The notes under the pieces: generated by a model
Told to the model about the DNA's origin: nothing
Databases searched by the model: none
Seen by the model: only the letters and a program-made list of their open reading frames with translations
Virus record (IMG/VR): IMGVR_UViG_3300030106_002060
Coordinates: 1 to 26,131 of that record
Direction: 5' to 3' (one strand)
DNA: 26,131 nt
From: a virus
Shown here: in pieces, positions 911 through 15,504 of the stretch
How positions within the stretch are numbered: position 1 is the stretch's first letter
Layout: each line of letters starts with the position of its first letter
Program-made: the position numbers and the translations under genes

Positions 911-1407
911 TGGCAAAATACGCAACAGGTAAATACGCAAAAGCGATATCAGACAGATCTGGTATGGAGTTTCCATACAAAGAAATGGTTAGAGAATGGA
1001 ATGGTGCGTTTGTTCATGTGTCCGAGTTTGAACCAAAACAACCACAATTAGAACCAAAACCAATGAATGGTGATGCTATATCTTTAAGAAATGTTAGACC
1101 AGGAAGAACAGAACCAAATGTTGCTGCTATGTTAGGAAACAATCCTTTTTCTATAACTGCGTCTTCGCAAACAATTACTGTTACAGAACCTAATCACGGT
1201 AGAACAACTGGTGATACAGTTAGATTTAGAAATGTTAGAGGTAACCCAGGAGGTGTATCTCTTTCAACATACGAAAACTCTTCAGGATTTAGTATAACAG
1301 TAACTACAACAGATAAATATACATTTACACTAGGGGCAACTCCTAGTATAACAGAAGATTCAGGAGGACCAACTGTGTCTGCAGGACCAGTTACGATAAC
1401 ACCATGA
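910..1407 (+). CDS. Small virion-associated protein with a beta-sandwich-like module
   Basis: The 165-residue product has two parts. Residues 1-70 are basic and low in hydrophobics (YATGKYAKAISDRSGMEF, then EWNGAFVHVSEFEPKQP, PRPGRTEP-like). Residues 79-141 form a beta module with the pattern ITVTEPNHG, TGDTVRFRNV, and TDKYTFTL. A related module appears inside the gp10-like gene at 13339-15504. The N-terminal half resembles a conserved small protein that follows the adaptor gene in many marine phages, whose role is not known to me. The start overlaps the preceding stop (TAATG) and is preceded by CCAGGAGC. The stop overlaps the start of the 49-residue gene (ATGA). It is probably a connector or tail component, judged mainly from position. 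Confidence 0.65.
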   Translation: MAKYATGKYAKAISDRSGMEFPYKEMVREWNGAFVHVSEFEPKQPQLEPKPMNGDAISLRNVRPGRTEPNVAAMLGNNPFSITASSQTITVTEPNHGRTTGDTVRFRNVRGNPGGVSLSTYENSSGFSITVTTTDKYTFTLGATPSITEDSGGPTVSAGPVTITP

Positions 1408-1553
1408 TAAAAAAATTAAAAGATTTTTTTTGTAAATTATTTGGCATTAAACAGTGTGCATGTGTGCCTGTTTATGAAGATGAAGAAACTGCAAAACAAA
1501 AAAAGATACGTTTAAAACATAAAGCTGATATTGAAAGAATAGGAGAAGAGTAA
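1404..1553 (+). CDS. 49-residue basic protein with Cys-Ala-Cys motif
   Basis: This small gene fills the gap between two larger genes. Its ATG overlaps the previous stop (ATGA) and its stop overlaps the next ATG (TAATG), an arrangement that strongly supports translation. The protein begins MIKKLKDFFCKLFGIKQC and continues with ACVPVYEDEETAKQKK. The first 17 residues alternate Lys with Phe, Leu and Ile, so they could form an amphipathic helix that lies on a membrane. They are followed by three cysteines (residues 10, 18 and 20) and then a charged tail. No signal peptide or full membrane span is present. Function is unknown; a peripheral membrane or small virion protein is possible. It interrupts the run of connector genes, so it may be a small morphogenesis factor. 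Confidence 0.68.
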   Translation: MIKKLKDFFCKLFGIKQCACVPVYEDEETAKQKKIRLKHKADIERIGEE

Positions 1554-2263
1554 TGGCTGGATTAAGTGCATCAGGATTAAAAACACAAATTAGAAGCTAT
1601 ACTGAAACAGATTCTAATGTTTTATCAGACAGTGTATTAGAAAATATTATTTTAAATGCTCAATATAGAATATTTAGAGATGTACCAATCGATGCAGATA
1701 GAAAACAACAATTAGGTAATTTAGTTGCGGGACAAGAGTCAATTAACGCTCCTGCTGGTTGTTTATTTGTTAGAGGTATACAAGTATATGATACCGCAGG
1801 TTCAGAAACTACAGGGGCTAATAGATGGTTAGAAAAAAAAGACTATACGTATCTACAAGAATATCAAGACGTAACCGGAACCTCCGCTGCTCAAGGTCAA
1901 CCTAAATATTATGCTATGTTTGGTGGAGGCACAGGAGAGTCTGATACAACATCAGGCCGTATAGCTTTTGCTCCAGTTCCTAATACAACTTACAGATTTA
2001 GAGTTCATTTTAATAAAATGCCAGATCTTTTAGAGGGTGATAATGTTAACTACCTTAGTATGAATTTTTCAAATGGTCTATTATATTGCTGTTTATCAGA
2101 GGCATATGGCTTTTTAAAAGGTCCGATAGATATGTTGACTTTGTATGAAAATAAATATAAACAAGAAGCACAGAAGTTCGCATTAGAACAAACTGGAAGA
2201 AGAAGACGAGACGATTATACTGACGGAACTGTCAGAATGAAAATTGAGTCTCCTTCGCCGTAA
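1553..2263 (+). CDS. Putative phage adaptor protein (SU10/T7 gp11-like)
   Basis: The 236-residue protein looks like a second adaptor in the neck of the particle. The N-terminus (LKTQIRSYTETDSNVLSDSVLENIILNAQ) is the helical segment typical of this family. It is followed by YRIFRDVPIDADR, a beta-rich middle with PAGCLFVRGIQVY, and QGQPKYYAMFGGG near residues 110-125. A C-terminal helix pair (LLYCCLSEAYGFLKGP, then MLTLYENKYKQEAQKF) leads into an Arg/Asp-rich tail (RRRRDDYTDGT). AGGAG lies just upstream of the ATG and the start overlaps the previous stop. Having two adaptor-type genes close together is usual for phages with a P22- or T7-like connector. Confidence 0.72.
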   Translation: MAGLSASGLKTQIRSYTETDSNVLSDSVLENIILNAQYRIFRDVPIDADRKQQLGNLVAGQESINAPAGCLFVRGIQVYDTAGSETTGANRWLEKKDYTYLQEYQDVTGTSAAQGQPKYYAMFGGGTGESDTTSGRIAFAPVPNTTYRFRVHFNKMPDLLEGDNVNYLSMNFSNGLLYCCLSEAYGFLKGPIDMLTLYENKYKQEAQKFALEQTGRRRRDDYTDGTVRMKIESPSP

Positions 2264-2276
2264 TAGGAGATAAGAT

Positions 2277-2729
2277 ATGGCAATAACATCAGCAATATGT
2301 TCAAGCTTTAAACAGGAGCTTTTACAAGGTAAACATAGTTTTGAATCTTCAGGTGGACACACTTTTAAGATTGCATTATTTACTAGTTCCGCGTCTTTAG
2401 ATGCATCTACAACAGACTATTCAACATCAAATGAAATTACAAATACATCTGGAACCGCTTATACAGCAGGTGGAGCAACTCTTACAAACTCAGGTGTTTC
2501 ATTATCTTCAACAACTGCATTCACAGATTTTGCAGATGTAACTTATTCATCTGCATCTTTCACTGCAAACGGTGCAATAATTTATAATACAACAACAGAT
2601 GGTGGCTCAGGCACAACTGACGCTGTTTGTGTAATTGCATTTGGCGGTGACAAAACAGCAAGTAATGGAACTTTTAAAATAGAGTTTCCAACAGCATCAG
2701 CTACAGCAGCAATCATCAGACTAGCATAG
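2277..2729 (+). CDS. Small beta-rich virion protein (decoration-like)
   Basis: The 150-residue protein starts MAITSAICSSFKQELLQGKH and then consists of beta-forming, Ser/Thr/Gly-rich segments: FKIALFTSSASLD, GTAYTAGGATLTNSGVSLS, FTANGAIIYNTTTDGG, and a final GTFKIEFPTASA. This N-terminal motif and order recur in a family of virion structural proteins of tailed phages; the exact place in the particle (head decoration or tail) cannot be told from sequence. It has a good ribosome binding site (TAGGAGATAAG before the ATG) and a 13-base spacer from the previous gene. It marks the step from connector genes to fibre genes. Confidence 0.65.
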   Translation: MAITSAICSSFKQELLQGKHSFESSGGHTFKIALFTSSASLDASTTDYSTSNEITNTSGTAYTAGGATLTNSGVSLSSTTAFTDFADVTYSSASFTANGAIIYNTTTDGGSGTTDAVCVIAFGGDKTASNGTFKIEFPTASATAAIIRLA

Positions 2730-2739
2730 GAGGCCGACC

Positions 2740-3741
2740 ATGTCGGTATCTTCAGGATGGGGCAGGTTCACCTGGGGTCAAGCTAATTGGAATGAAAACC
2801 AAAAGTTTGGAGCAGGTTGGGGAGCTAAAACTTGGAACGAACAATCTTGGGGAGATCTTAACGACGCAACTGTTTCCTTAACAGGTTTTGAAATATCTTC
2901 TAGCCTGGGTATAGAAGGCTGGGGTAATAATACCTACGGTCAAGGTGCTTGGGGTGAGTTTGCAATTACAATTGGTTTAAGTCCTAATTTTGATATTAGT
3001 GGTGTAGAATTTTCAGCTAGTGCAGGTTCTTTATCAGGAATTGGTTCTGCAGTTGTAGAGCCATCAGGTGTTTCTGCAACAGCTAGCGCAGGATCATTAG
3101 CAGTTGAATCAGATGCTAATGTTGCAATGTCAGGAGTATCAGCTTCCTTCTCAATAGGTTCAGTGACAGTTGCTGATATGGCTGTTGGTTTAACTGGTCA
3201 AGAAGCAACATTGAGTCAAGGAACAGCGGTTGCACCAAACGATACTGTTTTACCTTCTGGACTTTCTTTTACTGCAAGTCAAGGGACTGCAATAGCTTTT
3301 TCTAGTAACCAAGTTGATGTTACAGGATTCTCGATGTCTACATCTTTGGGAACAGCTGTTGCACCAAACAATACAGCTTTATTATCAGGTCAACAGTTTG
3401 AATCTCAGTTAGGATCAATAGTAGGATTAGGTGGTGCAGTAGCATTACCTACTGGATTATCTGCAACAGCTAGTGTCGGATCTTTAGATCCTAATGATAT
3501 GACTTTAGGACTAACTGGTGTATCATTTAGTGCTAGTATTGGCTCTGTTTCTGTAGTTGATATGCAGGTTGGATTAACAGGTCAATCTGCTACATTTAAC
3601 ATTGGATCAGTTAATATATTTGCTTACGGCGATGTTGACACTGGCTCAAATACGTCTTATAGTAATGTTTCAACGGGTTCGAACGATACTTATTCGGATG
3701 TTGCAACTGGATCAAATACAAGTTATAGTGACGCTGCATAG
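2740..3741 (+). CDS. Trp-rich and repeat-built beta structural protein
   Basis: This 333-residue protein has three zones. Residues 1-75 are rich in Trp and Gly with repeated WG motifs (GWGRFTWGQANW, GWGAKTWNEQSWG, YGQGAWGEF). From about residue 45 to 295 there are roughly ten repeats of about 21-22 residues built on the pattern (L/P/M)(T/S)G-x-x-x-(S/T)-x-S-x-G(S/T)-x, as in SGVSASFSIGSVTV and TGVSFSASIGSVSV. The last 37 residues are a perfectly spaced 11-residue triplication (positions 3631-3729). Such regular beta repeats suggest a fibrous or solenoid-like tail structure. No enzymatic motif is seen. The start follows a strong GGAGG, and the next gene starts nine bases after the stop. I recognise it only as a marine-phage structural type. 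Confidence 0.65.
   Translation: MSVSSGWGRFTWGQANWNENQKFGAGWGAKTWNEQSWGDLNDATVSLTGFEISSSLGIEGWGNNTYGQGAWGEFAITIGLSPNFDISGVEFSASAGSLSGIGSAVVEPSGVSATASAGSLAVESDANVAMSGVSASFSIGSVTVADMAVGLTGQEATLSQGTAVAPNDTVLPSGLSFTASQGTAIAFSSNQVDVTGFSMSTSLGTAVAPNNTALLSGQQFESQLGSIVGLGGAVALPTGLSATASVGSLDPNDMTLGLTGVSFSASIGSVSVVDMQVGLTGQSATFNIGSVNIFAYGDVDTGSNTSYSNVSTGSNDTYSDVATGSNTSYSDAA
3631..3729 (+). repeat. Three tandem 33-base units encoding an 11-residue repeat
   Basis: Units lie at 3631-3663, 3664-3696 and 3697-3729. They encode DVDTGSNTSYS, NVSTGSNDTYS and DVATGSNTSYS, followed by DAA and the stop. Protein identity is high, while the DNA differs at synonymous sites (ACTGGCTCA, ACGGGTTCG, ACTGGATCA). This indicates an older duplication kept by selection on the protein rather than a fresh slip. 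Confidence 0.85.
3635..3663 (+). promoter_or_regulatory. Candidate sigma70-type promoter inside the repeat gene
   Basis: TTGACA at 3635-3640 is followed after 17 bases by TATAGT at 3658-3663, a consensus -35 with a five-of-six -10. Transcription would start near 3670, about 80 bases before the fibre-like gene at 3751. The match falls in a coding repeat and could be chance in AT-rich DNA, so it is only a candidate. Confidence 0.3.
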
Positions 3742-3750
3742 GAGAAAATT

Positions 3751-4950
3751 ATGGCATCAACATACACACCATTAGGTGTAGAACTTCAAGCAACTGGTGA
3801 AAACGCAGGAACTTGGGGAACAAAGACAAATACAAATTTACAAATCATCGAACAAATATCTGGTGGTTATACAACCCAAGCTGTCTCAGATTCAGGAGAT
3901 ACTACTCTTTCAGTATCTGATGGATCAACTGGTGCAACTCTTTCACATAGAGTTATAGAATTTACAGGATCTCTTACAGCATCACGAAATGTTACAATAC
4001 CTACCGATGTTCAAAATTTTTATTTTTTAAAGAACGCAACTTCTGGATCACAGAACGTTGTATTTAAATACGTAACTGGTACAGGAACTTCAGCTACAGT
4101 TGCAAACGGTAAAACTGTAATTGCATATGCAAAAGCAGACGATGGAACTAATCCAAGTATTGATACAATATCATTAGCGAGTGACCTTGTTGATGACACT
4201 ACACCACAGTTAGGTGGTAATTTAGATACTAATTCTTTCATGATAGACTTTGATGATGCTCACGGTATCAGAGATGAAAATGGAAATGAACAATTAATTT
4301 TTGAAACAACATCATCAGCAGTAAACCACATAGATATTACAAACGCTGCAACTGGTTCTGGTGCACAAATAGGTGCAGTTGGAGGTGATTCAAATCTTAA
4401 TTTACGTTTAAGACCAAAAGGAACTGGTCTTGTTGAAGCAATGGGTGCTGATAACCCAGGTTCAATTCAGCTTAACTGTGAACAAAATTCTCATGGTATT
4501 AAGCTTACTGGACCTGCACACAGCGCTGCACAGAGTTATGAGTTAAAATTTCCCACTGGAAACGTAACAGCAGACAGATTTTTAAAAGTAGCTTCGGTAA
4601 CAGGTTCAGGCACATCGGGTGTTGGACAATTATCATTTGCTGAAGTATCAGGTGGAACTTCTTGGCAAGCAGTAAAAACTTCTACATTTACAGCTGTTGC
4701 TGGTGAAGGTTATTTTATCAACACTACAAGTGGTGCAATAGAAATGGACTTACCTGCAGGAAATATTGGTGATGAAGTATCATTTATAGATTATGCAGGA
4801 ACTTTTGATAGTAATGCATTAACAATAGATCAAAACGGTTCAGAAAAAATTGCAGGATCAACTGATCCTTTAGTAGTATCAACAGAAAGAGCAGCGAATA
4901 CTTTAGTTTATGTAGATAGCACACAGGGCTGGCTTTTGAAGAATAATTAA
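3751..4950 (+). CDS. Putative tail fibre or tail-surface structural protein
   Basis: The 399-residue protein opens with STYTPLGVELQATGENAGTW and then GTKTNTNLQIIEQISGGY. This N-terminal signature is frequent in marine-phage fibre-type proteins and probably forms the attachment part. The middle (about 45-150) is beta-rich with RVIEFTGSLTASRNVTIP. A segment near 150-260 (DDTTPQLGGNLDTNSFMI, then GGDSNLNLRLRPKGTGLVE) is also common in tail proteins of this group. The C-terminal 100 residues (YFINTTSGAIEMDLPAGNIGD, then NTLVYVDSTQGWLL) look like a beta-sandwich or knob domain. No chaperone cleavage motif or enzyme site is evident. AGGAG precedes the ATG. It starts the receptor-binding region that continues with the propeller proteins. 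Confidence 0.62.
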   Translation: MASTYTPLGVELQATGENAGTWGTKTNTNLQIIEQISGGYTTQAVSDSGDTTLSVSDGSTGATLSHRVIEFTGSLTASRNVTIPTDVQNFYFLKNATSGSQNVVFKYVTGTGTSATVANGKTVIAYAKADDGTNPSIDTISLASDLVDDTTPQLGGNLDTNSFMIDFDDAHGIRDENGNEQLIFETTSSAVNHIDITNAATGSGAQIGAVGGDSNLNLRLRPKGTGLVEAMGADNPGSIQLNCEQNSHGIKLTGPAHSAAQSYELKFPTGNVTADRFLKVASVTGSGTSGVGQLSFAEVSGGTSWQAVKTSTFTAVAGEGYFINTTSGAIEMDLPAGNIGDEVSFIDYAGTFDSNALTIDQNGSEKIAGSTDPLVVSTERAANTLVYVDSTQGWLLKNN

Positions 4951-4964
4951 GGAGACTATATAGA

Positions 4965-5996
4965 ATGTCTACTTACAGAGCACTACACGGTCTTAAAATT
5001 AAAAAGAGATCATCCGATCCATCAAATCCTATACGTGGAGAAATGTGGTATAATTCAACCACAGGAAGTATTAAAGTTTATGGTTTTGCTCCAGCAAGTT
5101 GGACAGCAGGAGCAACAGCTCCAGGTCCACACATGACCTTTGCAGGTTGTGGAACTCAAACAGCTTATATTAAAACAATGGGTAATGACGGATCACCAGC
5201 ACCAAACCCATTAAGTGATTCATCACAAGAATATGATGGAAGTTCGTGGAGTGGTGCTCCAAATTCTCCTTATGCATCAAGAGATCCTGGACAAGCTGGA
5301 GTTCAAACAGCAGCAGTATTTTTTGGAGGACAAGGTCCTGGAGGTGCAGTAAAGTATGCCATAAGTTATAATGGTTCTACTTTTTCTGGTATACCTAATA
5401 TGAACCACGATAGAAGAAGTGTTAATGGAACAGGATCCTCTACAGCAGCAATAACTGTCGGTGGAGCAGGTCCACCTTCTGGATCACCAGAAGGTGTAAT
5501 GACAAATGTAGAATCTTGGAATGGTTCATCTTGGAGTAACGAAACTGCAACTCCATATGCAGTTGCAAGTGGAGGAAGTGGAGGCGTTGAATCTGCAGCT
5601 TTAATGGTTGGAGGAGTATCTCCAGGTCCCGAAGGACCAGAAGCTGGGGTTTTTACTACATTAGAATATGATGGTTCATCTTGGACAGCAGGTGGTAATG
5701 CTAATACTGCAAGAAACAGATCTTCTGCTGGACTGGCAGGAACTCAAACAGCTATGTTAGTTTATGGAGGAGGACCAAATAAACAACAAGTAGAGTCTTA
5801 TGATGGATCTTCTTTTACTAGTGATTCAACTTTAGCTTCAGGACACAACGGAAGAGGAAATCATAACACAACTGGATATAGCACCTCAGCAATTTACGTG
5901 GGAGATCCAAACCCACCTGGTAGTGCTCCAGGAGCTAGTACAGTTGAAGAGTACACAGCTGCAGCTGACGCAGTACAAACGGTGGCGGTAACTTAA
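4965..5996 (+). CDS. Kelch/galactose-oxidase-like propeller protein, six repeats
   Basis: The 343-residue protein is the shortest of three paralogues. Residues 1-60 form a shared N-terminal module (TYRALHG, then SSDPSNPIRGEMWYNST) that probably anchors it to the virion. The rest is six repeats of about 45-50 residues with the pattern (T)QTA-a-x-x-GG, a variable Pro/Gly loop, E-x-(Y/W)-(D/N)-G-(S/T)-(S/T)-(W/F), then a loop ending in an AR- or G-rich turn. This is the look of kelch-type blades, so one six-bladed propeller is the simplest model. The C-terminus (STVEEYTAAADAVQTVAVT) matches the end of the two larger paralogues. No catalytic residues are recognisable, so a binding role such as a host glycan or surface protein is inferred. 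AAGGAG precedes the start. Confidence 0.7.
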   Translation: MSTYRALHGLKIKKRSSDPSNPIRGEMWYNSTTGSIKVYGFAPASWTAGATAPGPHMTFAGCGTQTAYIKTMGNDGSPAPNPLSDSSQEYDGSSWSGAPNSPYASRDPGQAGVQTAAVFFGGQGPGGAVKYAISYNGSTFSGIPNMNHDRRSVNGTGSSTAAITVGGAGPPSGSPEGVMTNVESWNGSSWSNETATPYAVASGGSGGVESAALMVGGVSPGPEGPEAGVFTTLEYDGSSWTAGGNANTARNRSSAGLAGTQTAMLVYGGGPNKQQVESYDGSSFTSDSTLASGHNGRGNHNTTGYSTSAIYVGDPNPPGSAPGASTVEEYTAAADAVQTVAVT

Positions 5997-5998
5997 TT

Positions 5999-7870
5999 AT
6001 GACAACATATAAAAAATTACACGGAGAAAATATTACAACACTAAGTTCAAACCCATCATCTGAGGATGATGCAGGTAGAATTTTTTATAATTCAACAGAT
6101 AATAAATTTAGAAGCATTGTATTTACAGAAGCGTGGTCCTCTGTTTCTCCCATGAATTTTGGTAGAGGAGGTATGGGAAATGCATCAGCCACTCAAACAG
6201 CAGGTTTAGTTTTTGGTGGTTATGTTGATCCTGCTAACTATTACACAAATACTGAAGAATATAATGGAACAGGTTGGGCAGTTGCTAGTGCTAAGTCAAA
6301 TCCCACAGGGTGGTCAATGGGTGCTGGAACACAAACAGCAGCTTTAGATATAGGTGGTTCTTATCCTGGACCAGCACGAAGCACTGTTGAAAATTACAAT
6401 GGAACATCTTGGTCAACTAATCCTCATACAATACCTACAGGGACGTATGAAGCAGGAAGTGCAGGGACATCAACTTCAGCAATAATTTTTGGAGGAAGAC
6501 CTCCAGCGACCCCTGGTAAAGCAAATAGTTTTGAATATGATGGATCTAGTTGGACAGCAGGCGGAAGTTTAAATACAGGTCGTAGAGTAATGGGAGGTGG
6601 AGGAACTCAAACTTCTTGTAGAGCCTCATCAGGTGTTACAAATCCAAGCACAGTTTACGTAACTACTTCAGAAGAATATAATGGAACATCGTGGTCTGCG
6701 AATGCAGACGTAAATACTGCAAGAAGAGATGCTATGGGCACTGGTTCTAATGCAGATAATCAACACTTTACAGGTGGTTGGAAATCTCCTGGCTCAACTT
6801 ATTCTACAAATTCTGAAAAATGGGATGGAACTTCTTGGACAGAAGGACCAGATATTGCATCAGCAAGAGTAAGTAACAGTAGCTCAAATAATTCACCTGC
6901 TAATACGCAAGTTTACATGGGTGGATATTCTCCAGGTTTTAACCCTACAACATTAACAGAAGAATTTAATTCTACAGCAAACGTTATTACAGCTGCAGCA
7001 TGGGCTAGTGGAGGAGCTTTAAATACAGCTAGAGATGAAGGAGCTTCATCGCAAAATGGATTACAAACAGCAGCTTTATATTTTGGTGGTTACGCCTCAG
7101 ACCCTGCATCTAATGCAACCGAACAATACGATGGTTCATCTTGGACTTCAAAAAATCCTTTAAACACAGCTAGATATTCTGGAGCTGGAGCAGGAACTAC
7201 CGCTGCAGCACTATATTCTGGAGGTTTTTCTAATCCATCAAGTTTACGATCTTCAGTAGAGGAATGGGATGGTACTAACTGGTCGAATCAACCATATTCA
7301 TTATCAGTTGCTAGATATTCTGCAGGTGGTTGTGGGACACAAACAGCTGCATTGGTTTTTGGTGGGGCTACACCAACGTATCAAGATGCAACTGAATTAT
7401 ATAACGGCACTTCTTGGACTAATGGTGGAGCATTATCACAGGCAAGGTCAAGTGGTGCTGGTGTTGGAATATCAACAGCAGCAATATATGCTGGAGGTAG
7501 GAATCCACCTGTTGGAGATTATTTAACAATTACTGAAGAATATGGAGGATCTTCTTGGACCTCTGGAGGAGCCTTAATTACAGGTGCAAATAATATGGGT
7601 GGTGCTGGAACAGCGACAGATGCCATAATTTTTGGTGGTATTATATCTCCAGGATCAGGCGGCTACACTGGAATTACACAAGGTTACGATGGAAGCGTTT
7701 TTTCTACAAGACCATCAATGGCAACAGCTAGAAATTATATTAGTGGAACTGGAACTGCAACAGCAGGCGTTGGTTTTGGAGGAAACTCACATCCTACGTA
7801 CACAACAGCAACAGAAGAATTTACTGGAGAAACAACAGCTGTTAATGTAAAAAACATTTCATCTAGTTAA
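5999..7870 (+). CDS. Kelch/galactose-oxidase-like double propeller protein, twelve repeats
   Basis: The 623-residue protein has the N-terminal module (TYKKLHG, SSNPSSEDDAGRIFYNST) followed by twelve repeats of about 46-50 residues. Clear examples are TQTAALVFGG then ELYNGTSWTNGGALSQAR, and STAAIYAGG then EEYGGSSWTSGGAL. Near the middle, after repeat six, the pattern breaks to TEEFNSTANVITAAAWASGG, which reads as a linker between two six-bladed propellers. The C-terminus EEFTGETTAVNVKNISSS is almost the same in the third paralogue. It starts two bases after the previous stop with no Shine-Dalgarno sequence, so translation is probably coupled. A receptor-binding or virion-surface role is inferred from position and fold. 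Two short plus-strand reading frames inside it (7269-7526 and 7632-7850) are repeat-driven shadows. Confidence 0.7.
   Translation: MTTYKKLHGENITTLSSNPSSEDDAGRIFYNSTDNKFRSIVFTEAWSSVSPMNFGRGGMGNASATQTAGLVFGGYVDPANYYTNTEEYNGTGWAVASAKSNPTGWSMGAGTQTAALDIGGSYPGPARSTVENYNGTSWSTNPHTIPTGTYEAGSAGTSTSAIIFGGRPPATPGKANSFEYDGSSWTAGGSLNTGRRVMGGGGTQTSCRASSGVTNPSTVYVTTSEEYNGTSWSANADVNTARRDAMGTGSNADNQHFTGGWKSPGSTYSTNSEKWDGTSWTEGPDIASARVSNSSSNNSPANTQVYMGGYSPGFNPTTLTEEFNSTANVITAAAWASGGALNTARDEGASSQNGLQTAALYFGGYASDPASNATEQYDGSSWTSKNPLNTARYSGAGAGTTAAALYSGGFSNPSSLRSSVEEWDGTNWSNQPYSLSVARYSAGGCGTQTAALVFGGATPTYQDATELYNGTSWTNGGALSQARSSGAGVGISTAAIYAGGRNPPVGDYLTITEEYGGSSWTSGGALITGANNMGGAGTATDAIIFGGIISPGSGGYTGITQGYDGSVFSTRPSMATARNYISGTGTATAGVGFGGNSHPTYTTATEEFTGETTAVNVKNISSS
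7817..7840 (+). repeat. 24-base exact repeat shared with 10038-10061
   Basis: The stretch encoding EFTGETTA near the end of the first large propeller gene is identical at 10038-10061 near the end of the second. Shorter identities occur at the mid-protein linkers (GCAGCATGGGCTAGTGG in both). Exact identity at synonymous positions, while flanking repeats have diverged, points to recent exchange or gene conversion at the ends of the modules. Confidence 0.8.
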
Positions 7871-7907
7871 AAACTATGATATATAAAAATAAAAGGAGGA
7901 AGTAACT

Positions 7908-8201
7908 ATGGCACTATTTATGTATGGTACTGCTACAAACACTGGAAAAGGTTTTTTCACTCATCAAGATAGATTAAATTTTTTTCTTAGAGGTTATCCT
8001 GGAGAAGTTTGGGTCATTGGAAACAATGAAAAAGGCGCTCTTTGGTTAGCTGAAAAGAACGGTGTTGAGAAAACAAAAGCAGAGGCTCAAGCTATTGTTG
8101 ATGCAGAGGTAACTGCAGCTCAAGAAGCATGGGATGCTCAGCCGGATGAATTAAAAGCAGAACTAAATAATCCTAGACCTACAGCTATAACTCTTCCATA
8201 G
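7908..8201 (+). CDS. 97-residue protein between two propeller genes
   Basis: The protein starts MALFMYGTATNTGKGFFTHQ and continues DRLNFFLRGYPGEVWVIGNN. It then becomes helical and acidic with Ala, Glu and Gln (KTKAEAQAIVDAEVTAAQEA), and ends PRPTAITLP. It has the best ribosome binding site in the region, AGGAGG at 7894-7899, eight bases from the ATG, whereas the propeller genes on either side have none. It sits 37 bases after one propeller gene and nine bases before the next. I do not recognise a named family. Its size, helical C-terminal half and place between fibre-type genes would suit a fibre-assembly chaperone or a small virion protein, but this rests on context alone. Confidence 0.6.
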   Translation: MALFMYGTATNTGKGFFTHQDRLNFFLRGYPGEVWVIGNNEKGALWLAEKNGVEKTKAEAQAIVDAEVTAAQEAWDAQPDELKAELNNPRPTAITLP

Positions 8202-8210
8202 TAACTAATT

Positions 8211-10091
8211 ATGTCTACTTACGAAGAACTACATGGTAAAAGAGTAGAAGTATTTGATTCTGACCCTACGTTGGATTCAACGTATGAGGGACAGGTGTGG
8301 TTTAACTCTACTTTAGGAACTCTTAGAACTGTTGTGTACACACAAGCCTGGTCAAGCACTGGACCAATGATTACCGCTAGAGGTTTTGGAGCAGCAATAG
8401 GAAGTCAAACTGCTTCTATTTATATGACAGGTCTTGAGCCAGGTGGTACTTATTATGCAGATACCGAAGAATACAATGGTTCAGGTTGGAATGCAGGCGG
8501 GGCTTTACCAACACAAAATTATGCAGGGGGTGGAGCTGGAACGCAAACAGCAGCTTTATTTTTTGGAGGCACTAACAACCCAGGTGGTAGTAAAGTAGCA
8601 ACCACGTATACTTATAATGGCTCTTCTTGGACAGCAACACCTAACTCAATGAACACTGCAAGAGATAATTTGTGTGGCACAGGAACACAAACTTCAGCGT
8701 TAGCTTATGGAGGAAGAAATCCATCTAATGCTAATGTTACAAATTTTGAAGAATGGAATGGATCAACTTGGTCAAACTTAACTGCTATACCTACTGCTGT
8801 AGGATACGCACAAGGTAGCGGACCAGAAACAGCGGCTTTTTTTGCAAGTGGTGGAACAAACAACAGTGGTTCACCTTATTCAAGCGCAACTCAAGAATAC
8901 GATGGTTCTTCATTAAGTGCTGGGGGTAATGTTAATACGGCAAGAGCTGGAGGAGGAGCAGCGGGAGATTCAAGCGCAGGATTAATTTTTGGAGGAGATG
9001 TAGGTGGAAGTTTACAAACAAAAACAGAAACATATGATGGAACAAGTTTTTCTGAAATTGCTGACATGTCAACAGCTATGAGAGGAGTCGGAAATGGATC
9101 TGGAGCAACTAATGCAGCTGCAGTAGTATCAGGATCTTATGGTCCTCCTGCACTTGGCACAACAGAAGAATTTCATCAAACAGCAGGAGTAATCACGGCC
9201 GCAGCATGGGCTAGTGGTGCAAATATAGGAACAGCTAGAAACGCTTTATCAGGTTGTGGAACACAAACAGCTTCTTTAATAGCAGGGGGAGATGATACTG
9301 CTCCTAGTTATTTAGCTGTCGTAGAAGAATATAACGGAACTTCTTGGTCAGAACAAAGTGATTTACCTGGAAATAGAAGAAGTGGTGCAATGGCTGGAAC
9401 ACAAACGGCTGCTTTGTTTTTTGGTGGACAATCACATCCAAATGTTGAAAACGATGGTTCTTATAAATACGATGGTTCTTCTTGGACTAGTGGTGGGGCT
9501 TTGCCAGTATCAATTGCTCATGGAGGAGTAGCAGGAACGGGAACACAAACAGCTGCTTTAGGAGTTGGTGGTTATATAGATCCACCAGGAGCATATACTG
9601 ACATAGTTTTAGAGTATGATGGATCATCATGGTCAGCTAATCCAAATAATTATCCTACTGTTCAATCAGTTACAGGTCATTGTGGAACACAAACTGCTGC
9701 CTTGTTAAGTGGAGGTGCGACTGCACCAGGAGCTTTCCAATCAACATCTTTTACATATGATGGTTCTAGTTTTAGTGCAGCACCTAGTTTAATATTTGCT
9801 CACTCGGTAGGGGCAGCTGGTGGAACTCAAACAGACGCAATTTTATGCACTGGACAAACAACTCCACAACCAACCGCATCAAGTCAGGCACAAGGATATG
9901 ATGGAACTTCTTGGTCTTCAAGACCAGGTGTATCTTCTGTAAGAAGATATTCTGGATCAGGAAAAAACACTTCACCAGCGTCTGCTTCATGGGTAGCAGG
10001 AGGATACACGGGATCAGCGAATACTAACTCACACGAGGAATTTACTGGAGAAACAACAGCTTTTCCAGCTAAGACATTGACAACTAGCTAA
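8211..10091 (+). CDS. Kelch/galactose-oxidase-like double propeller protein, twelve repeats (paralogue)
   Basis: The 626-residue protein is colinear with the 623-residue paralogue. It has an N-terminal module (TYEELHG, then SDPTLDSTYEGQVWFNST and AWSS), six repeats, a linker (TEEFHQTAGVITAAAWASG), six more repeats, and the tail EEFTGETTAFPAKTLTTS. Typical blades read TQTAALFFGG then YKYDGSSWTSGGALP. The linker and tail are far better conserved between the two paralogues than the variable loops between GG and E-x-Y. That is what one expects if the loops bind the target. There is no Shine-Dalgarno sequence; the start shares TAATTATG with the other large paralogue. A receptor-binding role is inferred. 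A repeat protein of other virion function cannot be excluded. Confidence 0.7.
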   Translation: MSTYEELHGKRVEVFDSDPTLDSTYEGQVWFNSTLGTLRTVVYTQAWSSTGPMITARGFGAAIGSQTASIYMTGLEPGGTYYADTEEYNGSGWNAGGALPTQNYAGGGAGTQTAALFFGGTNNPGGSKVATTYTYNGSSWTATPNSMNTARDNLCGTGTQTSALAYGGRNPSNANVTNFEEWNGSTWSNLTAIPTAVGYAQGSGPETAAFFASGGTNNSGSPYSSATQEYDGSSLSAGGNVNTARAGGGAAGDSSAGLIFGGDVGGSLQTKTETYDGTSFSEIADMSTAMRGVGNGSGATNAAAVVSGSYGPPALGTTEEFHQTAGVITAAAWASGANIGTARNALSGCGTQTASLIAGGDDTAPSYLAVVEEYNGTSWSEQSDLPGNRRSGAMAGTQTAALFFGGQSHPNVENDGSYKYDGSSWTSGGALPVSIAHGGVAGTGTQTAALGVGGYIDPPGAYTDIVLEYDGSSWSANPNNYPTVQSVTGHCGTQTAALLSGGATAPGAFQSTSFTYDGSSFSAAPSLIFAHSVGAAGGTQTDAILCTGQTTPQPTASSQAQGYDGTSWSSRPGVSSVRRYSGSGKNTSPASASWVAGGYTGSANTNSHEEFTGETTAFPAKTLTTS

Positions 10092-10123
10092 TAAAGTATA
10101 TATTGTTACATGAAAGGATTATT

Positions 10124-10876
10124 ATGACAGAAAAAAGAAATATACATGCACTTATAGAAAAAGAGGCACCTAGCCTAAATAATTTATTAGATCCAGAAGA
10201 TGTAAAAGAGTTTAAGGCTATGACAGCCGAGCTCCGAGACACATGGACCAAGAAACAAGTTTTTAGAACAGAGACAGAGATGAGAATGTCTGTTCTTCAA
10301 GATATGAAGTATCCAACTAAAGCTGCAAAATACTGGCAGTGTGTTAGAGAACAAAACGTATTCTTAGAAAACTTAATGACTCTATCTTTTGAGTGTAGAA
10401 GACAAGAAACTAAAGTTGACTGGTTAAAAAGAAAAATTGCATCAATAGAAAGTGAACTAGAAAGAGCCGATGGTGCACCAATGGATGGACCAGATGAAGA
10501 AATGTTTGAATGGAGAATTAAAAAAGAGTACCAATTAGAAAAATACAAAATTGATCTTGATGAATCCAGATATGGTTTAGCTAACATGCAACTTGTTGCT
10601 AAAGATAGAATGAGAGAAATTAAACTCTGGTCTACATTAAAGAAAGAATTTGATGATGGATCATTTGATACTCAAGATGTTAACAGACACCAGTTAGATT
10701 CTTATCATAAAATTATGAAAAATAAGGCAGAGACATTAACATCTGGTTCAAGTCAACCAGAAGTATTTAATGTGTTAGGTCAATTAAACACTATAGAAAG
10801 AGTTAAAAAATCAGGAGAAATGATTTACAATAAGAAAGAACAATTAGAACATGGTCTTGGATCAAAATCAGAGTGA
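10124..10876 (+). CDS. Helical, coiled-coil-like protein of unknown function
   Basis: From the ATG at 10124 the protein is 250 residues. This start is chosen because AAAGGA at 10113-10118 lies five bases upstream; an earlier in-frame TTG at 10103 lacks such a site. The sequence is highly charged and helical: LLDPEDVKEFKAMTAELRD near the start, RRQETKVDWLKRKIASIESE at about residues 95-115, and MFEWRIKKEYQLEKYKIDLDE further on. This suits one or more coiled coils. No membrane segment, signal peptide or catalytic motif is seen. It overlaps the first oxygenase gene by 26 bases, so the two are probably translated together. It might be a scaffold, chaperone or partner of the oxygenases, which is inference. 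I do not recognise a characterised family. Confidence 0.65.
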   Translation: MTEKRNIHALIEKEAPSLNNLLDPEDVKEFKAMTAELRDTWTKKQVFRTETEMRMSVLQDMKYPTKAAKYWQCVREQNVFLENLMTLSFECRRQETKVDWLKRKIASIESELERADGAPMDGPDEEMFEWRIKKEYQLEKYKIDLDESRYGLANMQLVAKDRMREIKLWSTLKKEFDDGSFDTQDVNRHQLDSYHKIMKNKAETLTSGSSQPEVFNVLGQLNTIERVKKSGEMIYNKKEQLEHGLGSKSE

Positions 10877-11519
10877 TTTTCAATTTATAGTTTTAGGACA
10901 AGCTATAATAAAATATGAGGTTCCTTTAGATGTTTTTCAAGCGATAAATTATATTTACGAAAAAAACTACAGGCATCTTCCTAAAGCTAATAAACAATTA
11001 ATTGGTAAAATAGAAAAAGAACACAGTTTATTTTATGATGGTTTAGATGGTGATAAAATGACTAAACATAATATGTTACCTAAAAGTATACTACAGTGGT
11101 TTGAATCTAAGTTTAGACATTATTTAGCATGGAGTCATGTAAATGAATTTGAACTACACATGAATTCTGTTTGGGTAAACCAAATGTTTGAACATGAATA
11201 TAATCCAGTGCACGTGCACCAAGGATCATTACACACAGGACTTTCTAGTGTTATGATTTTAAAACTACCAGAATCTTTTGGTGTAGAATATTCTTCAACA
11301 GGGCAGCCACAAAACGGCAAATTATCAGTTTTAGGCTCAACGTCTGGTCAGTTTGCTAAAATTGATTATCAACCAAATATTAAAGAAAGAGATTTTTATG
11401 TTTTTCCTTATGATATGAGACACTGTGTGTATCCATTTAATGGACCTGGAATGAGACGAACTTTAGCTGCAAACATGGATGTTAATCACGATCCAATCAA
11501 ATGTAGAGGATTAAACTAA
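10851..11519 (+). CDS. 2OG-Fe(II) oxygenase-like protein, HxH type
   Basis: The 222-residue protein resembles the putative 2OG-Fe(II) oxygenases of the TIGR02466/PF13759 kind. Around residues 119-140 it reads PVHVHQGSLHTGLSSVMILK, matching the family's N-x-x-H-x-H plus beta-strand pattern. The distal part FYVFPYDMRHCVYPFNGPG and MRRTLAANMDV supplies a candidate metal-binding His191 and a candidate 2OG-binding Arg (202 or 203). The first metal site is H121-V-H123 instead of the classic H-x-D. Expected chemistry is hydroxylation coupled to 2-oxoglutarate decarboxylation; the substrate is unknown. The gene overlaps its helical neighbour upstream, and its stop overlaps the next start (TAATG). First of four such genes in a row. 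Activity is not certain, because one ligand position is non-classical. Confidence 0.65.
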   Translation: MVLDQNQSDFQFIVLGQAIIKYEVPLDVFQAINYIYEKNYRHLPKANKQLIGKIEKEHSLFYDGLDGDKMTKHNMLPKSILQWFESKFRHYLAWSHVNEFELHMNSVWVNQMFEHEYNPVHVHQGSLHTGLSSVMILKLPESFGVEYSSTGQPQNGKLSVLGSTSGQFAKIDYQPNIKERDFYVFPYDMRHCVYPFNGPGMRRTLAANMDVNHDPIKCRGLN

Positions 11520-12112
11520 TGTACGAAAATATACAAATTACAGAACCTAAATGGAAAAGTTGGATAATACAAACAACAACACCGTTGTTTACACCAGACC
11601 AATGTAGACAAATTATTGAATGTGGTAGAAGTCAAAAACCACAACAGGCAAAAGTTGGTATGAATAAACCTGGAGGAGGCACAGATACAAAGAAAAGAGT
11701 TACAACTATATCGTGGATACCATTTAATAAAATGGAACACATGTATACTGATCTAAATAAATTTATACAAAAAGCGAATGAAAATCATTTTGGTTTTGGA
11801 GACGTAAGGATTACAGAACAAGCTCAATTTACAGAATATCCAGTAGGAGGTTTTTATGATTGGCATATGGACTCAGATGTTAATTTTGCACACGAACCAC
11901 CTGTTAGAAAAATATCTATGACACTATTATTAAATGATCCTTCAGAGTTTGAAGGTGGGCATTTAGAAATAGGTCAACCAGGTAAATATGGAGAACTAAA
12001 ACAAGGTCATGCTATTTGTTTTGCATCTTTTATAAACCATAGAGTTCAACCAGTTAAACGTGGTCTTAGACAATCTTTAGTTGTTTGGTTTGGAGGAAAA
12101 CCTTTTAGATGA
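11519..12112 (+). CDS. 2OG-Fe(II) oxygenase, prolyl 4-hydroxylase/PKHD-like
   Basis: The 197-residue protein has the full classic set of motifs. H116-M-D118 is in FYDWHMDSD. A substrate/strand motif FEGGHLEI is at 144-151. The distal half has H174 in FINHRVQPVKRGLRQSLVVW, with Arg184 ten residues on as the expected 2OG carboxylate ligand. The family uses Fe(II), O2 and 2-oxoglutarate to hydroxylate its target, often proline or a related residue in a protein; the substrate here is unknown. Length is normal for a stand-alone domain, with about 90 N-terminal residues. The start overlaps the previous stop and the stop overlaps the next start (ATGA). Of the four oxygenase genes this is the clearest assignment and the one most likely to be active. 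Confidence 0.85.
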   Translation: MYENIQITEPKWKSWIIQTTTPLFTPDQCRQIIECGRSQKPQQAKVGMNKPGGGTDTKKRVTTISWIPFNKMEHMYTDLNKFIQKANENHFGFGDVRITEQAQFTEYPVGGFYDWHMDSDVNFAHEPPVRKISMTLLLNDPSEFEGGHLEIGQPGKYGELKQGHAICFASFINHRVQPVKRGLRQSLVVWFGGKPFR

Positions 12113-12690
12113 TTAAAGAACAGTTTTTTCCAACAACTGTATACGGCAAAGATGTTAAACTAGACAACGAATTATTTGCTAATGAAATAATTGAGTGGTC
12201 TAAAAAAGATCCTGGTGTTCAAAAAACAAATCGTAACGGTTGGCACTCTACAACTGAAATGCATAAAATGCCTGTGTATCAACCTTTAGTAAATGAATTG
12301 TTTATAATGATGAATGATATATGGAAAGAAGAATGGTTAGATAGAGAACCTCTACTAGGTAATATGTGGGCTAATATAAATCCACCAGGTGGATCTAATG
12401 CTCCACACATACACCCTAATAGTTTATTCAGTGGAGTATATTATGTAAAAGCTCCTAAAGAATCTGGTGCATTAATTTGCAACGATCCAAGACCAGGAGT
12501 TCAATTAAATATGCCCATAAGAAAAGAAGGCACACCTCCAAAAAATTTATGGAGAGAGTTTCATTTAGAACCAAAAGAAGGCAGAATTATAATGTTTCCG
12601 TTTTATCTTTGGCATAATGTTGCTCTTAATAAATCAAATGATATAAGAATATCAGTAAGTTTTAATTTTATACAACATGGCTTTCAATAA
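12109..12690 (+). CDS. Putative 2OG-Fe(II) oxygenase (TIGR02466/PF13759 type)
   Basis: The 193-residue protein opens with EQFFPTTVYGKDVKLDN, the typical N-terminus of the TIGR02466 family. It contains the family core NPPGGSNAPHIHPNSLFSGV then YYVKAPKESG at about 91-120. The C-terminal part, EPKEGRIIMFPFYLWHNVA, leads to NDIRISVSFNF. His100 (with His102), His169 and Arg180 are the probable metal and 2OG ligands. The proximal motif is H-I-H, as in the first oxygenase of the cluster. Members occur in many marine phages and bacteria, and their substrates have not been established to my knowledge. GGAGG lies inside the end of the previous gene, upstream of the ATG. It overlaps the fourth gene by 14 bases. 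Confidence 0.8.
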   Translation: MIKEQFFPTTVYGKDVKLDNELFANEIIEWSKKDPGVQKTNRNGWHSTTEMHKMPVYQPLVNELFIMMNDIWKEEWLDREPLLGNMWANINPPGGSNAPHIHPNSLFSGVYYVKAPKESGALICNDPRPGVQLNMPIRKEGTPPKNLWREFHLEPKEGRIIMFPFYLWHNVALNKSNDIRISVSFNFIQHGFQ

Positions 12691-13321
12691 ATATCAAGTA
12701 ATTAAAAAAGCAATTAGTTATGATTTAGCTAATTTTATATTCAATTATTTTCTCTTAAAAAGAGACGCTGTAAATTTTATGTATAAAAATAATATAACTT
12801 TTGATAACGGAATGTTGGGAACTTGGACAGACCAACAGATACCAAACACATACTCTCATTATGCAGACATGGTTATGGAAACTTTATTAATGAAAGTGTT
12901 ACCTAGAATGCAAGAAGAAACAGGTTTACAATTAATACCAACATATTCTTATGCAAGAGCTTATAAAAAAGGAGATGAATTAAAAAGACACAAAGATAGA
13001 CCTTCTTGTGAAATATCCACCACTATAAACTTAGGTGGAGATCCCTGGCCTATATTTATCGATGGTACGGGGTCTGACAGCGTCATAGACGAGCGTAACA
13101 ACATACATAAGCCCAATGCACCCAAAGGAACTAAAGTCTTGCTTGAAGTAGGAGATATGCTAGTATATAGTGGATGCGAACTCGAACATTGGCGAGAGCC
13201 TTTTGACGGGAACATTTGTGGCCAAGTATTCTTGCATTATAACCACGTGAATGGCCCATTTGCTGAAAAAAACAAGTTTGATGGAAGACCTATGCTGGGT
13301 CTACCTTCATTTGTAAAATAG
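12677..13321 (+). CDS. 2OG-Fe(II) oxygenase-like protein with GC-shifted 3' half
   Basis: The 214-residue protein carries H105-K-D107 in ELKRHKDRPSCEISTTINLGG, a strong proximal metal site. Its distal His is H171 in CELEHWREPFDGNICGQVFL. The Arg expected about ten residues after that His is absent; the position holds Cys or Gln. Co-substrate binding is therefore unusual or uses another residue. A loop (about 130-150, SDSVIDERNNIHKPNAPK) separates the two halves. It begins 14 bases inside the previous gene. The 5' half is 20-32% GC in the 60-base lines counted, while the lines from 13021 to 13260 are 42-47%, with more C/G-ending codons. This suggests that the C-terminal half was swapped in by recombination. 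The assignment is good; activity is uncertain. Confidence 0.75.
   Translation: MAFNKYQVIKKAISYDLANFIFNYFLLKRDAVNFMYKNNITFDNGMLGTWTDQQIPNTYSHYADMVMETLLMKVLPRMQEETGLQLIPTYSYARAYKKGDELKRHKDRPSCEISTTINLGGDPWPIFIDGTGSDSVIDERNNIHKPNAPKGTKVLLEVGDMLVYSGCELEHWREPFDGNICGQVFLHYNHVNGPFAEKNKFDGRPMLGLPSFVK
13021..13260. other. GC-rich mosaic patch in the fourth oxygenase gene
   Basis: Counting four consecutive 60-base lines gives 28, 26, 28 and 25 G+C (42-47%). Counted lines just upstream have 12 (from 12721), 19 (from 12781) and 17 (from 12961). The line after, at 13261, falls to 21. The edges are fairly sharp and the reading frame is kept throughout. Confidence 0.7.
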
Positions 13322-13338
13322 TATTATAATGGAGTCAT

Positions 13339-15504
13339 ATGTTACAAAAAATAGGTTTTCAGCCTGGAATAAATAAACAAATATCTGCAACTACAGCCGA
13401 AGGCCAGTGGATAGATTGTGATAATGTTAGATTTAGATATGGCACTCCAGAAAAAATAGGTGGTTGGCGGCAACTAGGAGACAGTAAACTAACTGGAGCT
13501 GGTAGAGGACTTCATCATTTTGTAAATAGTAAAGGTAGAAAGTACGCAATCATAGGGACAAACAGAATTTTATATGCATACTCAGGAGGTATATTCTACG
13601 ACATACACCCGATTAAATCTACAACAACGCTTACAAGTGCATTTACCACGACTAACGGATCAGCTGTTGTCACAATAACTTTTAGTGGTTCTCACAATAT
13701 TAATGAAAATGATATTATATTATTAGATAGTTTTTCATCAATAACTAATTCTAATTTTGCAGCAGCCGATTTTAATGATAAAAAATTTATGGTAACTAGC
13801 GTGCCATCAACTACAACACTTACAATTACAATGCCATCAAACGAGTCGGGTTCAGGTGCAACAACATCTGGTGGTATTAGAGTTCAACACTACTATCCTG
13901 TAGGTCCAGCTGTACAAGCAAAAGGTTTTGGTTGGTCTCTTGGATCATGGGGTGGAACAGCTACAGGAGTTGCAACAACAACTATTACATCAGGAATTAA
14001 TAGTTCTACAACGACAGGAATTATTTTAACAGATGCTAGTTTGTTTCCAAGCACAGGAACTAGTATTATTAAAATAAACGACGAAGAAATATCTTACACA
14101 GGCATTAGCGCGTCTAATGAATTAACAGGTGTAACAAGAGAAGTAAGAGGAACAACAGCTGCTGCTCACAATGGTGGAGACACTGTAACAAACACAACAG
14201 ATTTTGTAGCATGGGGTGAAGCGGCATCAGGTGACTTAGTATTAGAACCAGGTATGTGGTCACTAGATAACTTTGGTGATAAAGCTATTTGTTTAATTCA
14301 CGATAGCGCTGTGTTTGAATGGAACTCTGCTGCATCAAACGCAGAGTCTACAAGAGCAAATATTATATCTGGTGCACCAACAGCATCACGTCACATGTTA
14401 GTATCTACACCGGATCGTCACTTAGTATTTTTTGGAACAGAAACAACCATTGGAGATACGTCCACGCAAGATAATATGTTTATTAGATTCTCAGACCAAG
14501 AGGATATAAATACATATACACCAACAGCTACCAACACAGCAGGCACACAAAGACTAGCTGATGGGTCAGAAATTAGAGGAGCTATCAGAGGTAGAGATGC
14601 AATTTACGTTTGGACTGATACAGCTTTATTTACACAACGTTTTGTTGGTCAGCCGTTTACCTTTGCGTTTGCACAAGTTGGAACTAACTGTGGACTCGTT
14701 GGACAGAATGCATGTGTAGAAGTTGATGGTTCTGCATACTGGATGTCAGAAAATGGTTTTTTTAGATACGCTGGTAAACTAGAATCACTACCATGTTTAG
14801 TAGAAGATTTTGTATACGATGACATAAACTTATCATCTGGTAACCAAATGGTATCTGCTGGTTTAAATAATCTTTTTGGTGAAATCATATGGTTTTATCC
14901 AACTTCCTCATCATCTGTTGTAAACAGAATGGTTGCATACAACTATTTTGATTCTTCACCACAAAGACCTGTTTGGACAAACGGAACACTAGCCAGAACT
15001 ATGTGGAAAGATTCTGCAGTATTTGGAGTGCCACACGCATTAGAATATAGTGCATCAGTAGATACATCTTTTGATGTTGTAGGAAACACAGAAGGTTCTA
15101 CAATATACTATGAACATGAAACAGGGACAGACCAAGTAAAAGGATCTGCAACAACAGCTATCACAGCTAACATACAATCTGGAGATTTTGATATTACACA
15201 ACAGCAACAAGGTGTTGCAAGTATTAGAGGTGATGGAGAGTTTTTAATGAAAATTAGAAGATTTATACCTGATTTTATATCTCAAACAGGTAATACACAA
15301 GTTACATTACAATTAAGAGATTTTCCAAGTGATACAAAAACTAGTTCAGCACTTGGACCGTTCACGGTATCTTCATCTACAAAAAAAGTAGATACACGTG
15401 CAAGAGCTAGAGCTATCTCACTTAAAATAGCAAATACAACAACTAATCAAAGTTGGAAGTTAGGAACTTTTAGATTAGATATACAACCAGACGGACGTAG
15501 ATAA
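13339..15504 (+). CDS. Tail hub / DNA stabilisation protein, P22 gp10-like
   Basis: The 721-residue protein starts MLQKIGFQPGINKQ and continues EGQWIDCDNVRFRYGTPEKI with GGWRQLG, a well-known opening of gp10-like tail proteins, which close the portal channel and hold the packaged DNA. The body has the family's propeller-like strands (TPDRHLVFFG, RGRDAIYVWTDTALFTQRF, YWMSENGFFRYAGKL, RPVWTNGTLARTMW). Two extra modules are inserted near the N-terminus. One is at about 95-180 (VVTITFSGSHNINENDIILL), related to the beta module of the 910-1407 gene. The other is at about 225-285 (LTDASLFPSTGTSIIKINDE, then LTGVTREVRGTTAAAH), a module often seen in marine-phage tails. The C-terminus (SWKLGTFRLDIQPDGRR) is typical. 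GGAG precedes the ATG. It supports a podovirus-like tail. Confidence 0.8.
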   Translation: MLQKIGFQPGINKQISATTAEGQWIDCDNVRFRYGTPEKIGGWRQLGDSKLTGAGRGLHHFVNSKGRKYAIIGTNRILYAYSGGIFYDIHPIKSTTTLTSAFTTTNGSAVVTITFSGSHNINENDIILLDSFSSITNSNFAAADFNDKKFMVTSVPSTTTLTITMPSNESGSGATTSGGIRVQHYYPVGPAVQAKGFGWSLGSWGGTATGVATTTITSGINSSTTTGIILTDASLFPSTGTSIIKINDEEISYTGISASNELTGVTREVRGTTAAAHNGGDTVTNTTDFVAWGEAASGDLVLEPGMWSLDNFGDKAICLIHDSAVFEWNSAASNAESTRANIISGAPTASRHMLVSTPDRHLVFFGTETTIGDTSTQDNMFIRFSDQEDINTYTPTATNTAGTQRLADGSEIRGAIRGRDAIYVWTDTALFTQRFVGQPFTFAFAQVGTNCGLVGQNACVEVDGSAYWMSENGFFRYAGKLESLPCLVEDFVYDDINLSSGNQMVSAGLNNLFGEIIWFYPTSSSSVVNRMVAYNYFDSSPQRPVWTNGTLARTMWKDSAVFGVPHALEYSASVDTSFDVVGNTEGSTIYYEHETGTDQVKGSATTAITANIQSGDFDITQQQQGVASIRGDGEFLMKIRRFIPDFISQTGNTQVTLQLRDFPSDTKTSSALGPFTVSSSTKKVDTRARARAISLKIANTTTNQSWKLGTFRLDIQPDGRR

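Follow-up and report, generated by a model that had tools for sequence, protein, structure and literature searches.

2-Oxoglutarate (2OG)-Fe(II) oxygenases are very common in marine phages. Here, we analyzed a block of four adjacent genes of this type, termed oxA, oxB, oxC, and oxD, which follows a gene for a helical protein in a 26,131-base virus record (IMGVR_UViG_3300030106_002060, positions 1 to 26,131; this whole stretch is referred to as the window). The closest described systems are those of pelagiphages. For HTVC023P-type phages, co-located 2OG oxygenases and "ferrochelatases" were reported, and a partner hypothesis was built on the latter name (PMC9599517, 2022); HTVC008M carries four annotated 2OG oxygenases and a "ferrochelatase" in a row. 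These clusters share with the window the phage group or host, and contain homologous oxB, oxC-like, and oxD genes near virion genes. However, the partner was treated as a ferrochelatase in PMC9599517 and the oxygenases there are nearby though not adjacent, whereas oxA–oxD of the window are contiguous after the helical gene and oxD has a predicted oxygenase fold. The text of PMC9599517 contains no mention of sulfotransferase, kelch, or propeller. Since the HTVC008M row and the clusters of PMC9599517 were already known, the first-pass annotation of the window was too strong in proposing an undescribed system. What is new is the correction of the ferrochelatase label, the fixed gene order with the helical partner, a sulfotransferase module, and the transfer of the unit between tail morphotypes. 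We propose that the block may be a protein-tailoring island that lies in the tail module of SAR11-type phages and can be transferred.

Oxygenases of the same families, several per genome, are also known from cyanophages (T4-GC 104/240/412/611, together with T4-GC 615, "Hyp. with ferrochelatase domain"; PMC3037559), and 24 oxygenases were found in S-SCSM1 (PMC9602691). Unlike the block in the window, the cyanophage oxygenases that we inspected occurred singly, in pairs, or as fusions at scattered genome positions, and no virion role has been shown for them. One paper on an OM43 phage listed a sulfotransferase and a 2OG oxygenase among the auxiliary genes, the function of which was unclear there. 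In the open-access literature, we found neither a marine phage 2OG oxygenase with a tested substrate nor an account of hydroxylation or sulfation in phage receptor-binding proteins.

The five genes at 10124–13321 described in the first-pass annotation, with their four overlapping oxygenase-like members, were all borne out by the open reading frames. The overlaps between the helical gene, oxA, oxB, oxC, and oxD are successively 26, 1, 4, and 14 bases, and a hub-like virion gene starts (13339) 18 bases beyond the end of oxD. Gene order was compared among 170 distinct loci bounded on the left by a propeller or helical gene and on the right by the hub gene. All four oxygenases, in the order A-B-C-D, were observed in 166 of them, and the hub gene was located directly 3′ of oxD in 123 of 123 early loci. 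This recurrence of order and adjacency is far beyond chance, indicating that the four genes and the helical gene form one conserved unit, as had been supposed. oxB and oxD were absent together from 4 of the 170 loci and were never lost singly; an obligate oxB/oxD pair was nevertheless set aside, since the joint absence may reflect a single event. The block genes are under purifying selection, with a median ratio of nonsynonymous to synonymous substitution rates of 0.09–0.26. It has been proposed for cyanophages that 2OG oxygenases are linked to NtcA signaling (PMC3037559), and by extension the enzymes of this block could consume 2OG or alter nitrogen/carbon signaling. We consider such a metabolic role improbable; a drain on 2OG needs no four divergent, ordered, purifying-selected enzymes in a structural operon exchanged with tail genes, and NtcA is a cyanobacterial regulator.

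Profile searches placed oxA, oxB, and oxC among the oxygenases. oxA and oxC matched Pfam PF13759 (7.5e-8, 33.1 bits, and 1.5e-26, 93.2 bits, respectively) and oxB matched PF13640 (5e-13, 50.2 bits), each above the curated cut-off of 27, and PHROGs likewise indicated the oxygenase type for all three; oxD was assigned by its predicted fold. The motifs noticed in the first-pass annotation, HVH (oxA), HMD (oxB), HIH (oxC), and HKD (oxD), were all present, and their residues were conserved in at least 97% of relatives together with the distal His: H121/H123 and H191 in oxA, H116/D118 and H174 in oxB (as well as the 2OG-binding Arg, R184), H100/H102 and H169 in oxC, and H105/D107 and H171 in oxD. 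Thus, oxB shows the HxD...H arrangement plus 2OG-binding Arg of the 2OG-Fe(II) oxygenase superfamily. In oxA and oxC, the classic HxD/E...H metal triad was not found, and HxH...H was observed instead. HxH is also present in the solved bacterial PF13759 relatives 3bvc and 2rg4, indicating that it is a family trait; these share HxH...H with oxC and align with it over ~135 residues (3e-20), though they are bacterial and lack a virion context. The superfamily membership of oxA and oxC is accordingly assigned by profile rather than by triad, and their iron binding and activity are putative.

oxD had no Pfam match. Its AlphaFold2 model, built from a 31-sequence alignment, showed a predicted local distance difference test (pLDDT) score of 85 and a predicted template modeling (pTM) score of 0.82. 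The matches listed by Foldseek for this model were almost all 2OG oxygenases, the best being a Pseudomonas prolyl-4-hydroxylase (P4H; 2e-8), and VIA-align gave Z of 14–16 over 157–197 residues against SnoN, PHD2, P4H, and similar enzymes. The best structure matches included protein hydroxylases, namely PHD2 and the Pseudomonas P4H complexed with EF-Tu, and the model also matched the antibiotic-tailoring enzymes SnoN and SnoK. With Pseudomonas P4H (4j25, 4iw3) and human PHD2, it aligned over 160–173 residues (VIA Z 14–15) and shared HxD...H, whereas identity was 12–13% and the canonical 2OG-binding Arg/Lys, 9–11 residues after the distal His, was not conserved in oxD (variable or Cys in alignments). 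The invariant R94, R108, R173, or H187 could serve as a substitute 2OG binder. Because the canonical residue is not conserved, we infer the cofactor use of oxD and file the protein as an "oxygenase fold" rather than as a proven 2OG enzyme. H105, D107, and H171 were invariant in pelagiphage and cyanophage homologues.

The annotation of phrog_2954 and of many phage records would make oxD a ferrochelatase, which, following the partnership proposed in PMC9599517, would provide haem to the oxygenases or manage iron for them. However, no match to the ferrochelatase family PF00762 at E ≤ 1 was found in oxD, 23 relatives, or five further phage "ferrochelatases," one of which matched oxygenase families instead. 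The fold, with its Protein Data Bank (PDB) matches to 2OG oxygenases, and the conserved HxD and distal His led us to reject ferrochelatase identity for oxD, and a haem- or iron-supplying partner is scarcely credible. Because the confident model matches prolyl-hydroxylase-type oxygenases and HxD...H is conserved, "ferrochelatase" appears to be a misnomer repeated through cyanophage and pelagiphage records. Homologues of oxD were found in 156 phage records, mostly of cyanophages, and many of those listed are named ferrochelatase; relabeling would undo a suggested connection of phages to haem or iron and concerns more than 150 records. oxB and oxD are joined in one cyanophage protein (phrog_3531 and L228). 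In one cyanophage protein annotated as "ferrochelatase," a second domain matched PF13640 and the oxD-like part showed a weak AlkB-type match (PF13532). As side observations, the phrog_2954 and phrog_3531 "ferrochelatase" products look like misannotated 2OG oxygenases, and "DNA endonuclease V" (phrog_274) and "DNA endonuclease" (phrog_2297) showed weak matches to these oxygenases and may be misnomers.

The gene ahead of the oxygenases had been described as coiled-coil-like, and its AlphaFold2 model (pLDDT 79, pTM 0.57) was indeed all-alpha with a long coiled-coil hairpin. The protein had no Pfam or PHROG match, tblastn against 50,697 phage records yielded no match, and a structure search with the model returned generic coiled coils only, with no informative match. 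Among relatives, its identity was 55–89% with an invariant core, and the gene accompanied the block in most loci. A function as an adaptor or scaffold is our guess from this linkage.

The block is closely linked to genes for Kelch-like propellers. Oxygenases were carried by 61 of 63 distinct propeller loci with at least 4 kb of downstream DNA, and of 103 distinct helical genes with sufficient sequence on their 5′ side, 102 had a propeller upstream. The unit has also been transferred between tail morphotypes. A T4-like contig with the head-tail adaptor Ad2 and head closure Hc2 (L213) contained propellers, the helical gene, and oxygenases together, and a lambda-like contig with the central tail fiber J and distal tail protein (L212) contained the same set minus oxA. 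A contig with baseplate-type tail genes (L221) carried propellers and all four oxygenases without the helical gene.

Further enzymes are inserted into the blocks of relatives. Of 174 scorable loci, 98 have a sulfotransferase gene placed after the helical gene and before oxA; the window's own block is without it. The protein matched the Sulfotransfer_1/3 profiles PF00685 (1.9e-13) and PF13469 (5.7e-13), and the 5′-phosphosulfate loop PRSGNT was identified in L016:3980-4768. On a tree of oxC, which is one short protein with recombination likely, sulfotransferase presence required at least 34 changes against a shuffled mean of 47.6; the gene seems to have been gained, lost, or recombined often, yet with phylogenetic signal. 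In some relatives (L217-219, L253, and L292), a P-loop kinase and a nucleotidyltransferase adjoined the sulfotransferase; the kinase barely passed the APS_kinase cut-off and matched AAA_33 better, so a supply of 3′-phosphoadenosine-5′-phosphosulfate by the two is only suggested by these matches. A fifth oxygenase was found between oxA and oxB in 14 loci, and further extra oxygenases occurred singly. The fifth oxygenase (L196:2400-2981 and 13 other loci) has an HxE-like motif (WHCE) rather than HxD. A Methyltransf_24 methyltransferase and a GT8 glycosyltransferase were present inside the blocks of L208 and L292, respectively. Because relatives insert a sulfotransferase, oxygenases, GT8, and a methyltransferase, the block looks like a modular tailoring island, and this gene mix appears to resemble a modular tailoring cassette more than a metabolic gene set.

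Glycans and small molecules are also substrates of sulfotransferases, GT8, and Methyltransf_24. It is possible, though less likely than not in our judgment, that the target of the oxygenases, and of the sulfotransferase and glycosyltransferase in loci that have them, is a glycan, lipid, or small molecule of the host surface. Its modification late in infection could, for example, prevent superinfection or keep progeny off debris. The tail location would then arise from the exchange of receptor-binding and receptor-modifying genes together, and the linkage with receptor-binding genes and their joint transfer fit such a receptor-matched modification. The likeness of the oxD fold to SnoN and SnoK also favors it, as does one block that lies away from tail genes (L192, described below). 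However, we saw no inserted gene of the transporter, lipid-linked, or membrane kind, and the only solved relatives of the sulfotransferase by sequence were protein-tyrosine sulfotransferases, which matched weakly (best 4e-6).

The explanation that we tentatively prefer is that the tail proteins for host recognition are hydroxylated in exposed loops by the oxygenase set and that some are then sulfated or glycosylated. Four non-interchangeable 2OG-Fe(II) oxygenases would be made together, late, with the helical partner, which may be a scaffold or substrate adaptor, and would add hydroxyl groups to side chains of exposed, Gly/Pro-rich loops in the tail proteins of the phage itself. The candidate substrates are the Kelch-like propellers in the window and, for HTVC033P and HTVC023P, tail proteins rich in glycine. 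In many relatives, the sulfotransferase, and occasionally GT8 or the methyltransferase, would then decorate the new hydroxyls or neighboring residues, and the chemically altered adhesin surface might change receptor binding or resist decay. Points in favor of this explanation are the conserved metal residues and purifying selection of the oxygenases, the constant gene order, the linkage to propellers, which recurs in contigs of other tail types, the inserted tailoring genes, the protein hydroxylases among the best matches of the oxD model, and the Gly/Pro-rich segments that neighboring tail proteins have in common. In the window's propellers, Pro was, as a purely descriptive figure, enriched by approximately two- to three-fold in the loops that follow each FGG strand. 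A fuller form, which we regard as doubtful, is a multi-enzyme modification pathway wherein oxygenases hydroxylate adhesin loops, the sulfotransferase, GT8, or methyltransferase caps them, and enzymes and adhesins move as one unit across podo-, sipho-, and myovirus-type genomes.

Several points weigh against hydroxylation of the tail proteins. Two of the 63 propeller loci, L281 and L348, lack the oxygenases, and a search of their records for PF13640 gave no match. The oxygenase blocks of HTVC033P and HTVC023P are without a detectable propeller. In L192, the block, including the helical gene, stands beside a DNA polymerase and a Cas4-type exonuclease, and no propeller was found in this 23-kb contig. 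Homologous single oxygenases of cyanophages (Syn30) occur in replication or metabolic regions. Because of these and an oxD-oxB pair in a contig of a bacterial metagenome-assembled genome (MAG; L392), the oxygenase families are not tail-specific. Pro-rich segments are common in surface loops generally, we know of no established activity for HxH-type PF13759 enzymes, and small-molecule substrates would be equally compatible with the SnoN/SnoK likeness of the oxD model.

Most of the contigs showing these block or propeller exceptions (HTVC033P, HTVC023P, L192, L281, and L348) are fragments. The same five led us to reject a propeller-exclusive linkage; the tie to the propellers on which the first-pass annotation had drawn was tight in this lineage but not exclusive. 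The tail proteins near the HTVC033P and HTVC023P blocks contain 25–34% Gly with Gly-Pro-rich stretches. Because these blocks adjoin Gly-rich tail proteins without propellers, the common factor is proximity to adhesin-like tail genes and not the propeller itself. In HTVC033P (L148), the tail proteins encoded close to the oxygenases at 6377–8173 and 8707–10449 consist of 34% glycine, have Gly-Pro-rich stretches, and resemble polyglycine-type adhesin tips.

The neighbors of the L192 block would also fit DNA base modification by TET/JBP-like or AlkB-like oxygenases, and so would the weak AlkB-type and Tet_JBP matches of a cyanophage fusion relative of oxD. We regard this as very improbable; in ~170 loci the block sits in the tail operon and not among the replication genes, Pfam gave no Tet_JBP or AlkB match for any of the four window proteins, and HTVC023P-type phages have separate DNA-hypermodification genes (PMC9599517). 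Modification of tail proteins and modification of the host surface or a small molecule are the two serious candidates, and the data do not separate them cleanly. The block narrows the search for substrates. It is a fixed and conserved group of genes linked to those for host recognition by the tail, more than half of the scorable loci add a sulfotransferase, and HTVC023P, HTVC033P, and HTVC008M are cultured close relatives. Should the tail adhesins carry added hydroxyl or sulfate groups, a host range predicted from sequence only would miss a chemical layer.

The features of the window are listed in Table 1. Its tail genes (161, 910, 1553, 2277, and 3751) and the hub gene have homologues in Pelagibacter phage HTVC023P. 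Because related oxygenase blocks also occur in two SAR11 genomes, one obtained from a single cell (L379, 62-kb contig) and another (L383, 59.5-kb contig), the host of the window is likely SAR11.

Table 1. Genes of the oxygenase block and its surroundings in the window.
Feature	Position	Strand	Remarks
Kelch-like propeller / tail protein 1	4965..5996	+	phrog_27227; repeats GTQTA..FGG; Pro-rich loops after FGG
Kelch-like propeller / tail protein 2	5999..7870	+	phrog_27227
Small conserved gene between propellers, putative product	7908..8201	+	Same place in most relatives
Kelch-like propeller / tail protein 3, immediately upstream of block	8211..10091	+	phrog_27227, 4e-94
Helical partner (coiled coil), all-alpha, long coiled-coil hairpin	10124..10876	+	AlphaFold2 model; co-occurs with block
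oxA, putative 2OG-Fe(II) oxygenase, three-His HxH...H type	10851..11519	+	PF13759
oxB, 2OG-Fe(II) oxygenase, HxD...H...R type	11519..12112	+	PF13640
oxC, putative 2OG-Fe(II) oxygenase, HxH...H...R type, like PDB 3bvc, 2rg4	12109..12690	+	PF13759
oxD, predicted 2OG-Fe(II) oxygenase fold, HxD...H	12677..13321	+	phrog_2954, labeled "ferrochelatase"
Hub-like virion structural gene, right edge of block	13339..15504	+	phrog_3287

Some minor observations were also made. The small gene at 7908–8201 sits between propeller genes in nearly all relatives. In some relatives, other small genes are inserted at fixed points of the block (L018:5050-5421, L105:3503-3928, and L113:6022-6351), two of the three being ParB_N-like by Pfam. 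In the L392 contig, from a Gammaproteobacteria MAG, an oxD-like gene adjoins one that combines a SEC-C-like motif with an oxB-like domain (4809–6430), and this pair is a possible cellular relative of the oxB-oxD pair. Finally, a flavin-dependent (tryptophan) halogenase-like gene was found near 2OG oxygenases in T4-like marine phages (1281–3240 of HTVC008M, which is L225, and 9265–10611 of L387), hinting that halogenation falls within the same tailoring repertoire.

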